NCBI RefSeq assembly: GCF_008801925.2
Contig: NZ_CP062803.1
Coordinates: 248,001 to 312,000, forward strand
DNA from: Cupriavidus basilensis
Lineage (GTDB): Bacteria > Pseudomonadota > Gammaproteobacteria > Burkholderiales > Burkholderiaceae
DNA: 64,000 bases
Reading direction: 5' to 3'
Part shown: positions 1,271 to 3,940 of the stretch, in pieces
How the letters are laid out: each line of letters starts with the position of its first letter
Position numbering within the stretch: the stretch's first letter is position 1
Program-made: the position numbers and the translations under genes
The notes under the pieces: generated by a model
Database searches by the model: none
The model's input: only the letters and a program-made list of their open reading frames with translations
What the model was told of the DNA's origin: nothing

Positions 1271-2103
1271 GCTGGCAGGACGCAGCCGGCGTCCTGCACC
1301 GCCCCGCCACGGGCGAGGTGCGCATTGCCTCGCTGGTGCCGTCCGTTACCGAACTGCTGTTCGCCCTGGGGCTGGGGCCCCTGATGGTGGCGCGCACCGG
1401 CTTTTGCATCCATCCCGAACCCGCCGTGCGTGCCGTTGCCAAGGTGGGCGGCACCAAGGACGTCAATCTCGAGCGCCTGCGGGCGTTGGCGCCCACTCAC
1501 GTAGTGGTCAACATCGACGAGAACCGGCGCGAGACGGTGGACGAGATCCGCGCGTTTGTGCCGCATGTGATCGTCACCCACCCCTGTGCGCCCGCGGACA
1601 ACCTGGCGCTCTACCGGCTGCTTGGCGGCATCTTCGGCCGCCTTGCCGAAGCGGAATCGCTCTGCGCCGCCATGGCGTCCGAACTGGCGCAGGTAAGTGC
1701 CCGGCAGTGGCCCGCGCGCAAGGTCCTGTATGCGATCTGGCAGGACCCGTGGATGACGGTGTCGCGAGAAACCTATATCAGCCAGATGCTGGCGTTGGTG
1801 AACTGGCAGACGTGGCCTTCGGCTGACGCCATGCCCCAGGCTTGTGTTGACGGCGAGTGCAGCCGGCCCAATACGCCGCAGACGCGGTATCCGAGCTTCC
1901 GGTGGAGCGACGCGCTGGTGCGGGAGATTGACCTTGTCCTGCTCTCCAGCGAGCCCTATCGGTTTACCGAGGCGCATGTCGATGCGCTGGAGCGGCAGAT
2001 TGGCAAGGAGGTATTGCTGATCGATGGGGAGATGGTTTCCTGGTACGGGAGCCGGGCTGTGGAGGGGGTGAGGTATTTGTCGAGGTTTGCAGGTGGGGTT
2101 TAG
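1267..2103 (+). CDS. BtuF-like cobalamin/metal-chelate binding protein without signal peptide
   Basis: A 278-residue protein with the two-lobed helical-backbone receptor fold of BtuF/FecB-type binding proteins: strand RIASLVPSVTELLFALG near the N terminus, the GxxKDVNLERLRALAPTHVV segment, and a backbone-like middle region followed by a second lobe (KVLYAIWQDPWMTV). Family members normally bind vitamin B12 or siderophores for an ABC importer, but this one starts directly with the fold after about 18 hydrophilic residues, with no signal peptide, and no permease or ATPase gene is adjacent. It overlaps the upstream SDR stop by 4 nt. A cytoplasmic ligand-binding or salvage role is inferred; function is unproven. 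Confidence 0.75.
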   Translation: MSWQDAAGVLHRPATGEVRIASLVPSVTELLFALGLGPLMVARTGFCIHPEPAVRAVAKVGGTKDVNLERLRALAPTHVVVNIDENRRETVDEIRAFVPHVIVTHPCAPADNLALYRLLGGIFGRLAEAESLCAAMASELAQVSARQWPARKVLYAIWQDPWMTVSRETYISQMLALVNWQTWPSADAMPQACVDGECSRPNTPQTRYPSFRWSDALVREIDLVLLSSEPYRFTEAHVDALERQIGKEVLLIDGEMVSWYGSRAVEGVRYLSRFAGGV

Positions 2104-2148
2104 GGGGTGTGACTGTGACTTCAGCTACAACCGCAACGGCTTAACGTC

Positions 2149-2172
2149 AAAGGCAAAGGCAAAGGCAAAGGC
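2149..2172 (+). repeat. AAAGGC hexanucleotide tandem repeat, 4 copies
   Basis: Four perfect copies of AAAGGC in a row at the left edge of the large inverted-repeat element. It is non-coding here and may mark replication slippage. Confidence 0.8.
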
Positions 2173-2199
2173 AGTTTCACCTCCCCTGCGGGGAGGCGA

Positions 2200-2229
2200 C
2201 CTACTTTCTTGTCTCGCCAAGAAAGTAGG
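2200..2229. repeat. Outer hairpin A1 of the inverted-repeat element
   Basis: A perfect 11-bp stem CCTACTTTCTT / AAGAAAGTAGG with an 8-nt loop. The same stem recurs in inverted order at 2714-2743. I recall stems of this type as dispersed repeats in proteobacterial genomes, but could not search. Confidence 0.85.
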
Positions 2230-2259
2230 CAAAGAAGCGACCCGGATGGGGCGACCCCC

Positions 2260-2365
2260 CCTCGTCGGCAGGCAAAAAGAGCGGCCGGGGGCCAAACTCA
2301 CATCGCCTTAGGGCGATGCTCAGACATGGCCCCCTCTTTTCCGCTCTTTTTGCCTGCCGACGAGG
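2260..2365. repeat. Long three-tier hairpin B1
   Basis: The outer stem is a perfect 25 bp (2260-2284 with 2341-2365). Inside it lie an 8-bp stem GGGGGCCA / TGGCCCCC (2287-2294 with 2327-2334) and an apical stem CATCGCC-TTAG-GGCGATG (2301-2318). The layout matches B2, but the outer-stem core sequence differs. Confidence 0.9.
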
Positions 2366-2418
2366 CGCCCCATAACGGGAGATGAAAACCCAGACGGCTC
2401 GCTGCGCATCGCGGGGAG

Positions 2419-2446
2419 GTGATTGCCGCCTGGGGGCGGAAATCAC
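2419..2446. repeat. Central hairpin C1
   Basis: A 12-bp stem with one mismatch (GTGATTGCCGCC with GGCGGAAATCAC) closing the tetraloop TGGG. It is a sister of C2, with changed but still paired bases. Confidence 0.8.
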
Positions 2447-2496
2447 GTCTACACCGCATGGTGATTTGACGACATCGCTCTCGCGCTGGGTCAGCC

Positions 2497-2524
2497 GTGT
2501 TTCCCGCCTGGGGGCGGGAAACAC
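2497..2524. repeat. Central hairpin C2
   Basis: A perfect 12-bp stem (GTGTTTCCCGCC with GGCGGGAAACAC) closing the tetraloop TGGG, identical in layout to C1. Confidence 0.85.
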
Positions 2525-2576
2525 AGGAGCGCGATGCGAAGCGAGCCGTGAAGGTGTGCCAAGGCCGTATGGGGCG

Positions 2577-2682
2577 CCTCGGGATTTCACGAAAAGAGCG
2601 GAGAAGAGGGACCCATGTCTGAGTATCGCCTTAAGGCGATGCGAGTTTGGGTCCCGGCCGCTCTTTTCGTGAAATCCCGAGG
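2577..2682. repeat. Long three-tier hairpin B2
   Basis: The outer stem is a perfect 25 bp (2577-2601 with 2658-2682). The middle stem is GGGACCCA / TGGGTCCC (2608-2615 with 2648-2655) and the apical stem ATCGCC-TTAA-GGCGAT (2625-2640). Compared with B1, nine outer-stem positions differ and each change is matched on the partner strand. Confidence 0.9.
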
Positions 2683-2713
2683 GGGTGTCGCCCCATCCGG
2701 CGCGCCTTCTTTG

Positions 2714-2743
2714 CCTACTTTCTTGGCAAGACAAGAAAGTAGG
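2714..2743. repeat. Outer hairpin A2 of the inverted-repeat element
   Basis: The same perfect 11-bp stem as A1 (CCTACTTTCTT / AAGAAAGTAGG), with the loop in inverted orientation. Confidence 0.85.
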
Positions 2744-2866
2744 TCGCCGCGCCGCAGGCGTGGTGAAACTGCAGTTGATGTTGCAGTTAAGCCTTTGAAT
2801 TTGAAGATAATTTTTCAGTTTCAGCAAGCGGCGCAGCAGCAAAACCCCACCAGTACCCCTTAACCC

Positions 2867-3940
2867 TTAAACCCGAAACCTAACAACCCCATCCTCCCCA
2901 ATCTCCCGCCTCACCTCCCCCGCATGCCACAACACATGCAAGTGCGCCAGCGCCTCGCCCATGGCAAACGTCATCTGGTGAATATCAAACTGCCGGTTGA
3001 AAATCACGCCAACGATGTCATGCGCATTGCAGGCCTTCTCCACGCAGGCCGCCCGCGTCTCGGCAAGCCGCTCCACATGGTGTTCGCGCAACTGGCGGAT
3101 CCGGGTATGCAGGTTCCGGAACGGCCGCCCATGCGACGGCAGGATCAGCACGTCCTCGGGCAGCGGCTCGTACTTGCCGAGGGAATCCAGATATAGCTTG
3201 AGCGGATTGGCTTCCGGTTCCATGTCGAACACGCTGACATTGGTGGAGATGCGCGGGAGCACCATGTCGCCGGAAATCAGCACATTCAAGGCGGCGTTGT
3301 AGAGCGCCACGTGCTCGGGCGCGTGGCCGAAGCCAGTGATCACTCGCCAGCCGGACCTGGCCGGGTCGGTGCCGATATGCACGGTATCGCCGTCCATCAT
3401 GCGGCGGTACTGGGTGGGCAGGTCGGGCACCAGCGACGGGTAGTAGCTCTTGCGTGCGCGCAGCTTTTCCAGGCTGTCGGGGTCCGTCAGGCCGTGGCGG
3501 GCGAAGTGGCTGGCCGCGAAGTCGCCGCCGGCGTTGGAGCCGATGCCGCTGCCGCCGCCCATCACGCGGGCGTTCATGTAGTCGCCCAGGCTCATCCACA
3601 GGCGCGCGTCCCAGCGCTTGCACAGCCAGTGCGCCAGCCCGATGTGGTCGGGGTGGCAGTGGGTGGCCAGCACGCGCAGCACGGGCAGGCCTTCGAGTTC
3701 GTTGGCGAACACGGTTTCCCAGTGCGCCTTGATGGTGTCGCTGGTGACGCCGCAATCGATGATGGTCCAGCCGTCGCGGCCTTCAAGGCGGTCGCGCACC
3801 AGCCACAGGTTGATGTGGTCCAGTGCGAAGGGCAGCGGCATGCGCAGCCAGTAGACGCCTGGCGCTACCTGTTGCCGCGCGCCGCCTTCGGGCAGGGTTT
3901 CACCAAACGGGTATTGGAGTTCGTGTTCGAGTGCGTTCAT
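2867..3940 (-). CDS. MBL-fold metallohydrolase
   Basis: A 357-residue metallo-beta-lactamase-fold protein. The metal-binding HxHxDH motif reads HCHPDH, followed by a later histidine (GFGHAPEH), the bridging aspartate in ISGDMVL and a C-terminal LPSHGRPF histidine. The long C-terminal helical part (LREHHVERLAETRA) is typical of the glyoxalase-II-like/LACTB2-like group. Hydrolysis of a thioester is plausible but not shown. It is divergent from the MerR gene; the shared 199-bp region holds a palindromic operator at 4040-4061, so it is probably a member of the LiuR-type regulon for branched-chain acyl-CoA breakdown. The start codon is the only ATG that retains the full N-terminal strand. Confidence 0.85.
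   Translation of the reverse strand: MNALEHELQYPFGETLPEGGARQQVAPGVYWLRMPLPFALDHINLWLVRDRLEGRDGWTIIDCGVTSDTIKAHWETVFANELEGLPVLRVLATHCHPDHIGLAHWLCKRWDARLWMSLGDYMNARVMGGGSGIGSNAGGDFAASHFARHGLTDPDSLEKLRARKSYYPSLVPDLPTQYRRMMDGDTVHIGTDPARSGWRVITGFGHAPEHVALYNAALNVLISGDMVLPRISTNVSVFDMEPEANPLKLYLDSLGKYEPLPEDVLILPSHGRPFRNLHTRIRQLREHHVERLAETRAACVEKACNAHDIVGVIFNRQFDIHQMTFAMGEALAHLHVLWHAGEVRREIGEDGVVRFRV

Follow-up and report, generated by a model that had tools for sequence, protein, structure and literature searches.

A dispersed mirrored hairpin element of Cupriavidus basilensis with one-sided wobble pairs and skewed flanking DNA

Between two convergent genes of Cupriavidus basilensis (a Peripla_BP_2 gene on the left, a metallo-beta-lactamase-fold gene on the right) lies a nest of inverted repeats whose corresponding stems differ in sequence and still pair. 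It occupies positions 2180–2763 of the window, by which we mean the whole 64,000-nucleotide stretch analyzed (NZ_CP062803.1, positions 248,001 to 312,000). From the letters alone, an initial annotation had read the nest as the product of selection on local RNA or single-strand DNA folding, or of modular exchange of stems, and had proposed searching for further copies and for a linked mobilizing enzyme of the REP-transposase type. We therefore asked what kind of element this is. The earlier interpretation survives in part: signs of folding selection and of stem exchange were found, and the REP-type link was not. Half elements, one-sided wobble pairs, pairing between the A loop and its flank, and compositional skew of the neighboring DNA had not been foreseen.

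Layout, copies, and distribution

An inverted-repeat check of the window bore out every coordinate and pairing proposed for the A, B, and C hairpins, and with them the mirror layout A-B-C-C-B-A, with A1/A2, B1/B2, and C1/C2 where they had been placed (Table 1). The outer stems of B1 and B2 (CCTCGTCGGCAGGCAAAAAGAGCGG, CCTCGGGATTTCACGAAAAGAGCGG) differ at nine positions, and each is 25 bp long and 100% complementary. The C hairpins, taken to behave likewise, are both present, C1 with one mismatched pair and C2 with none. A giant cruciform had been set aside in favor of local folding; a giant imperfect palindrome exists too (arms of 79 nt at 87% and 76 nt at 89%), and local folding selection is still supported. 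The right half folds at −180 kcal/mol versus a mean of −110.6 in 200 shuffles (sd 5.6), its complement at −159.3 versus −96.1, the two strands being nearly equal in z-score (about −12); the element's folding is thus far beyond chance.

Table 1. Features of the window element and its surroundings (window coordinates)
Feature	Position	Strand	Description	Basis
Skewed left flank	1803..2103	+	inside Peripla_BP_2 gene 1267-2103; C lost on the + strand	
Left end	2130..2179		variable 6-mer-like repeats (AAAGGC, AACTGC, similar) and GTTTCACC	
Hp0 left	2180..2196		small outer hairpin CCTCCCC-TGC-GGGGAGG	sequence
A1 hairpin	2200..2229		CCTACTTTCTTG / CAAGAAAGTAGG; 12-bp perfect stem	
A1 loop-flank pairing	2214..2240		TCGC 2214-2217 with GCGA 2237-2240 beyond the hairpin; likely pseudoknot	
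B1 three-tier hairpin	2260..2365		internal loops CC/TCTTTT and AAACTC/CTCAGACAT	
C1 hairpin	2419..2446			inverted-repeat check
Centre	2447..2496		between two head-to-head halves	
C2 hairpin	2497..2524			inverted-repeat check
B2 hairpin	2577..2682		other B subfamily than B1	
A2 hairpin	2714..2743		12-bp perfect stem	
Hp0 right	2747..2763		outer hairpin, imperfect in the window copy	sequence
Right end	2764..2800		GGTGAAAC and mirror 6-mer-like repeats	
Skewed right flank	2867..3167	-	inside metallo-beta-lactamase-fold gene 2867-3940; G lost on the + strand	

The search for further copies returned dozens, so the element is neither single nor unconserved. The source genome (G000) holds at least eight mirrored copies, three of them damaged, and about thirty half or shortened ones. 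Six near-full copies share 92–100% identity, including L004, whose A2 is cut by an insertion sequence (IS); a seventh (C1:360-362k) is split by two ISs, an eighth (C1:575k) has lost one B, and C1:667-669k matches only the right half of the window element, in two pieces. Half or shortened copies keep the order Hp0-A-B-C or lack B, and many of their C-side ends adjoin another repeat (GCTCCCCTCTCCCAC...). All these counts are lower bounds, based on the best 40/72 and 40/70 candidates and on at most 14 per genome in relatives. The A palindrome has 41 exact matches in the source genome, the reversed control pattern none. Among the matches listed for G000 and its sister genome G023, full mirrored copies are confined to the larger replicon, and halves occur on both. 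A half measures about 250 nt, and we take each Hp0-A-B-C half to be probably one copy; the window element would accordingly be two halves, of different subfamilies, placed head to head.

Occupancy is shared between close relatives and rare beyond them. At least 26 of 38 G000 sites have an orthologous occupied place in G023. The window site itself has a match in 60/60 genus genomes; among the matches listed, a continuous hit from the element to the right gene occurs only in G000, G023, and G420 (where the left gene is about 1.4 kb more distant), and fragments of the draft G443 suggest the window insertion there too. The two gene matches at this site are separated by 60, 72, and 112 bp in G007, G021, and G442, respectively. 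Only 4/39 relatives other than G000 have any element match among those listed, two of them short, and the exact A palindrome was found in 4/398 other genomes sampled from the order (reversed control 0/399). Because so few relatives and order genomes match and the window site is filled in so few, insertion of the element is lineage-limited, most of the genus evidently having no window insertion. Among the matches listed, two further C. basilensis records (L107, L117) carry related A ends.

Loss is visible as well, judging from orthologous sites in G000 and G023. The G023 copy at L035 is reduced in G000 to a collapsed scar, consisting of a fused Hp0 hairpin bordered by 6-mer sequence; three G000 copies that lack B have orthologs that carry it. 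At L044, G023 carries a window-type element and G000 a second-family mirrored element with a related A hairpin and another interior; at L235, the corresponding place in G000 has matches to a shortened copy. None of these three G023 sites (L035, L044, L235) proved to be a clean empty site in G000. Two full G000 copies 27 kb apart (C1:222823 and 250180) are 100% identical although G023 is occupied at both sites too (C1:179990 and 206825), possibly through gene conversion.

Comamonadaceae, Paraburkholderia, and Pasteurellaceae also have related mirrored elements; a copy in Pasteurella multocida (L307:2491-2920) is flanked by dapF and a DUF484 gene, which share a strand. In G021 (L079, L080, L081), mirrored elements of about 700 bp combine related A ends with interiors of TGGTTTCGTGGTGG repeats. 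In a Rhodocyclaceae MAG (L091:4673-6485), a pair of mirrored A arms surrounds about 1.3 kb containing an ORF of 374 aa, possibly cargo; no Pfam or PADLOC match was found for this ORF. At the left Hp0 position, many proteobacterial loci show, by eye, a short hairpin of different sequence. In the Cupriavidus copies examined (window element, L005, L076, L079), the A ends are immediately bordered on the outside by 6-mer-like repeats (AACTGC, AACTTC, AAAGTC, and mirror forms), variable tails reminiscent of those of SINEs.

Folding and strand polarity of the B and A hairpins

The B hairpins carry signs of selection on single-strand folding. We aligned 51 distinct, trimmed hairpins from G000, G023, and G420, having excluded 2 of 58 segments beforehand (one chimeric with an IS, one diverged). 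The B structure is paired in 94.9% of 2040 cells versus 85.1% in shuffles, and control structures slid along the alignment pair in 42–52%. In 13/40 pairs both sides have changed, with a covariation score of 0.251 versus 0.079 that 0/500 shuffles reach; the count of double-changed pairs is by itself less special, 30/500 shuffles reaching 13. Stem exchange is also borne out, since in L252, L254, and L076 the outer stem comes from one B type and the middle stem from the other. Paired divergence had been taken as a signature of selection; the covariation is there, but it is weaker evidence than assumed because double changes in a perfect palindrome can also arise by template-switch repair. More weight falls on the loops and on the G.U bias in Cupriavidus. 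Among unpaired columns, no variation is seen in AAACTC or in the CC facing TCTTTT, and CTCAGACAT and TCTTTT are nearly constant; the capped hairpin has an AACTCGCT-CGCTCAAACA apex.

A/C-type mispairs in the Cupriavidus B hairpins are one-sided. Defining the outward strand as that read from the element's center toward the A ends (C, B, A, flank), all 87 cells of the A/C type, in 16 kinds, are G.U on the outward strand and none on the opposite one, where the same 87 cells are A.C; the cells are not independent, three kinds making up 68/87, and 18 further mispaired cells are of other kinds. Columns 41/42-59/60 alternate between two states (39/51 and 11/51 rows), both fully paired on the outward strand only.

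Across taxa, the raw comparison of folds of the 170 nt from A inward points the same way: the outward strand folds better in 6/6 clear cases from Pasteurellaceae, 20/23 from Comamonadaceae, 32/38 from Paraburkholderia/Caballeronia, 12/14 from other proteobacteria, 23/23 from Cupriavidus, and 22/38 from remaining taxa (chosen loci, near-duplicates removed). A composition control with 30 shuffles per segment leaves an outward excess in Cupriavidus (−7.1 kcal/mol, 23/23 segments) but not elsewhere (Pasteurellaceae 0.0, Comamonadaceae +2.4, Paraburkholderia/Caballeronia +2.7, other proteobacteria +2.7, and the rest +2.1 kcal/mol, positive values pointing the opposite way). Because this control removed the folding advantage in the other groups, we confine strand polarity to Cupriavidus. 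A general folding polarity beyond that genus was discarded, since equal-composition shuffles give as much or more in four groups; there, the outward strand simply has a higher content of G and U.

The A end shows a different kind of coupling. Across 77 distinct loops from all taxa, the A loop tends to be complementary to the bases just past CAAAGAA (TCGCC/GGCGA, GCTGC/GCAGC, GTGT/ACAC, GTCC/GGAC, and CCTG/CAGG are examples), with a mean best complement of 4.0 versus 3.06 and a maximum of 3.32 in 300 permutations that used one flank per distinct loop. Many short A loops outside Proteobacteria have no flank complement. Loop and flank thus likely form a pseudoknot whose pairing partners change together between taxa. 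In an independent sample, the apex motif AACTCGCTNCGCTCAAACA occurs in 16/398 Pseudomonadota genomes (reversed control 0), and among 14 apex sites in ten fetched loci, 10 have an A-like hairpin upstream and an eleventh was seen by eye in L348. By eye, loop-flank complements recur there (TGGCC/GGCCA in L345, TGTG/CACA in L347); 10/10 fold better outward, a raw count without composition correction, and flank skew is mixed (−0.14 to 0.67 over ten sites).

These features lead us to favor, tentatively and at somewhat less than an even chance, a dispersed non-autonomous mobile element built as a structured single-strand module, with an outward-read strand that folds through A and B and a protein acting in trans. 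Its working form would be a single strand, perhaps RNA, read outward through C, B, A, and flank. That strand would be transcribed or made as ssDNA and would fold into the A pseudoknot and the capped B hairpin; a putative trans-acting protein would bind the folded strand and spread the element, protect it, or both. Since the element carries no enzyme, it would have to disperse in trans; a folded single strand is suggested because stems covary, loops are constant, and A forms a putative pseudoknot, and outward polarity in Cupriavidus because the wobble pairs are one-sided. RNA is the preferred working form, with ssDNA of the same polarity as the alternative. Our confidence in this account was lowered because outward folding outside Cupriavidus is no more than composition gives. 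Also weighing against it are the nearly equal z-scores of the two strands in the right half of the window element and the mixed flank skew of the apex sample.

Skewed flanks and their possible causes

Outside the A ends, the strand running into A is C-poor and G-rich for about 300 bp, into genes of either direction. Inward-strand GC skew starts at +0.12 and +0.18 over the first 100 bp, rises to +0.49 (full copies, 11 flanks) and +0.45 (A side of halves, 18 flanks) at 100–200 bp, falls to about +0.2 at 200–300 bp, and is 0.10 or less past 300 bp; the C side of half copies is flat (−0.07 to +0.05). These values come from chosen loci and some copies only, with one L004 flank excluded for its IS. 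Pasteurellaceae, Comamonadaceae, and Paraburkholderia/Caballeronia show the same flank skew and other proteobacteria a weaker one; by eye, flanks are skewed in P. caribensis, which has the element, and ordinary-looking in P. phymatum, which does not. A hairpins also exist in Oscillospiraceae, Bacteroidota, and others. Flank skew is absent in two such non-proteobacterial groups, and these hairpins may be unrelated look-alikes.

In the window, the skew reaches into both neighboring genes. Changes were counted relative to a consensus built from 25 orthologs (of 29 loci) without the element, taking the eight commonest change kinds per bin. Within 300 bp of the element, the left gene shows 44 losses of C and 9 gains (48 and 10 in G023), and three orthologs have 18/15, 16/6, and 17/9. 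In the right gene, 42 losses of G stand against 8 gains, with 20/19, 13/8, and 6/12 in three orthologs. Skew over the last 200 bp of the genes is 0.37 and 0.37 at the element versus −0.05 to 0.23 at the eight other convergent junctions of the window.

Transcription of the host genes was not supported as the cause, because skew at 100–150 bp is equal for genes reading away (0.53, 8 flanks) and toward the element (0.54, 18 flanks). All 8 away-reading frames carry a Pfam domain. This comparison covers 26/30 A-side flanks of 24 G000 loci; both flanks of L004 and the left flanks of L005 and L030 were excluded, two of these four having been called as reading away.

Nor is ongoing hypermutation clearly supported: C/T versus A/G differences between G000 and G023 number 50/16 at 200–300 bp, 22/31 at 100–200 bp, and 25/23 at 300–400 bp. 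Divergence between the two genomes is 0.025–0.062 at 100–400 bp versus 0.024–0.032 further out, and 0.20 in the repeat-rich first 100 bp (4/6 full and 14 half pairs; C-side rows are unreliable, some pairs being non-orthologous there). Because divergence is at most modestly raised, the flank change is old, slow, or held by selection.

Within the favored account, the skew might arise, less surely than the other steps, if the strand ending 3' at A were repeatedly exposed as ssDNA, for example after an SbcCD-type hairpin cut, and lost C over time. This step is weakened by the flat C side and the modest divergence: a break model expects skew on both sides of a half, and the C side, beginning about 250 bp from A, is flat.

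The same exposure could be carried further, so that mutation would produce the whole strand signal, G.U bias and flank skew alike: if A were repeatedly broken or exposed as single strand, C would be lost on both 3'-ended strands, and the element would be a palindrome with no RNA. This is consistent with inward-strand GC skew that is positive beyond A and for the most part slightly negative within, and with the loss of C (left) and G (right) from the window genes near the element; strand-biased C loss could itself make outward G.U pairs. The reading gained ground because the composition control removed folding polarity in four groups, where the strand difference follows composition. We nonetheless consider it unlikely, as near-constant internal loops and an A loop pairing kept across taxa ask for selection, the C side of halves shows no skew, and flank divergence is little raised.

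Selection on the flank is another alternative. Rho-dependent terminators act through rut sites, which are C-rich, G-poor, unstructured stretches. The outward flank strand resembles them in all three respects and differs in being tied to a repeat and in running about 300 bp into genes of either direction. An outward transcript stopped by Rho, with the flank as a selected rut region and the element as a structured terminator module for read-through RNA, would account for the C richness and G poverty of the outward strand in the main proteobacterial groups and for its weaker folding relative to the complement (6/6, 23/23, and 40/40; Cupriavidus 22/23, other proteobacteria 11/16), although the latter follows from composition. 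It also fits flanks that are fairly stable between G000 and G023, and the genomic sites. Gene pairs around 28 copies (24 in G000, 4 in G023) are convergent in 16 cases and divergent in none, against 9 convergent and 8 divergent among 57 gene pairs in the window; 30 halves are 15 convergent, 15 codirectional, and 0 divergent (from 36 loci, two of them from G023, less 4 duplicates and 2 loci with double A hits). Yet skew is just as strong where the outward RNA would be sense (8 flanks) as where the gene reads toward the element (18 flanks), and such selection would need to reshape roughly 300 bp at dozens of places in numerous lineages; we regard this explanation, too, as improbable. Exposure of the 3'-ended strand is preferred to it for the skew because gene direction makes no difference.

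Intrinsic terminators (a GC stem followed by a T run) occur at 2 sites versus 1.3 (sd 1.1) expected. The center (2447–2496) has no sigma-70-like promoter match and the element no promoter-like site. A near-universal entry of transcription at C, suggested early by 7/8 codirectional sites, shrank to 11/15 among the halves (p = 0.12) and was dropped.

If the favored account is true, codon choice in genes close to these repeats need not reflect the gene itself. Flank skew and one-sided wobble pairs can be measured in existing genomes, and because both can, the movement of non-autonomous palindromic repeats, and whether they work as RNA or ssDNA, becomes testable.

Mobility and relation to known repeat families

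No transposase, recombinase, or reverse transcriptase is consistently linked to the element in the genomes examined, so the proposed mobilizing enzyme did not materialize. Y1_Tnp, the domain expected of a REP-type transposase, has 3 matches in the source genome and occurs in 10/12 genomes or records examined (8 over the cut-off). The chromosomal Y1 relative at L033 has no adjoining copy, however, and Haemophilus influenzae HI-5290 (G457) and G319 carry A hairpins without any Y1_Tnp match; a REP-type transposase was therefore rejected as the driver. A reverse transcriptase, considered as a SINE-like idea from the 6-mer tails, fared no better: G456-G458 have no RVT_1 match, so RVT_1 is not needed for the element's presence there, and the other 7/10 genomes have one. 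Transposase genes found within copies belong to separate inserted ISs.

A MITE- or REPIN-like DNA element moved in trans by a transposase, with stems kept perfect by palindrome correction and not by selection on a strand, would make sense of the inverted ends, the intergenic sites, and the lineage-limited insertion. Palindrome-type instability would explain the B-less copies with B-bearing orthologs and the element collapsed to its Hp0 ends, and Y1 transposase relatives are present in several host genomes. Correction alone would not be expected to yield constant unpaired loops or one-sided G.U mispairs, however, and the two A-hairpin carriers devoid of Y1_Tnp speak against it. Full copies have terminal inverted repeats and half copies an A end on one side only; no autonomous copy with the same A ends was seen among the loci examined, and no target-site duplication at the window site, one G023 site, or two Paraburkholderia sites, whose flanks are too remodeled or collapsed to define one. 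We rate this reading as rather unlikely, and keep the trans-acted single-strand module as the preferred one.

A plasmid or phage origin was likewise set aside: the window element has no match in plasmids, and the Variovorax copy none in phage records. That Variovorax copy does have matches in 14 plasmid records, half of which are megaplasmids of Paraburkholderia. The Haemophilus copy has no match in E. coli. Four stretches in IMG/VR match, and their loops were compared. Rfam returned only sub-threshold microRNA-precursor models, with 0 hits at gathering scores in L157, L095, L108, and L079.

Comparison with known repeats, made on parts of the sources cited, yields likeness without identity. 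REP/REPIN/BIME sequences with their RAYT genes (PMC2817692, PMC3116915) are similarly dispersed, intergenic, and palindromic, occur as inverted pairs, and have several subfamilies per genome. A REP unit, however, spans 20–40 bp (PMC2817692), far less than one element half, and has a constant foot of the GTAG/GTGG type, whereas the lower stem of A varies (CTAC, GTGA, CTCA, and AGTA forms). The RAYT gene stands in the host genome, often flanked by repeats, and the element has no constant RAYT link; the H. influenzae REPs described in that source (GTAGGGTGGGCTT...) are other sequences. The R families of Pseudomonas fluorescens (PMC2718517) are also intergenic inverted repeats, mostly between gene tails, but R0 and R2 have inverted repeats identical to those of resident ISs, and none such was found for the element; R178 and R200 were compared by description only. 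The stem-loop families of Cozzuto 2008 (PMC2267715), likewise compared by description only, are long, intergenic, and predicted to fold; they include Ppu-1 (617 bp, 39 copies in P. putida) and Hin-1 and Pam-1, described as DUS-based. A search of open-licence papers, mostly by listing, found no description of an A-B-C element, and the part of PMC3733652 consulted does not mention the six genera looked for.

It is conceivable, though we would sooner doubt it than assume it, that these copies represent an undescribed, proteobacteria-wide class of mobile structured RNA, a pseudoknot plus a capped hairpin occurring singly or head to head, and that activity at its A end polarizes the base composition of roughly 300 bp of neighboring host DNA. 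A non-coding element would then leave a measurable mutational or selective footprint on its neighbors, genes included. Many proteobacterial genomes would, if this is right, hold an unannotated structured element that moves with no visible enzyme and reshapes adjacent gene ends.

Insertion sequences of several kinds (DDE_Tnp_1, an rve type, a Mutator type, and an rve type with an IS481 leucine zipper) stand inside or at A palindromes or the B apex at L065, L004, L306, and L326, as if the A and B hairpins were IS insertion targets.
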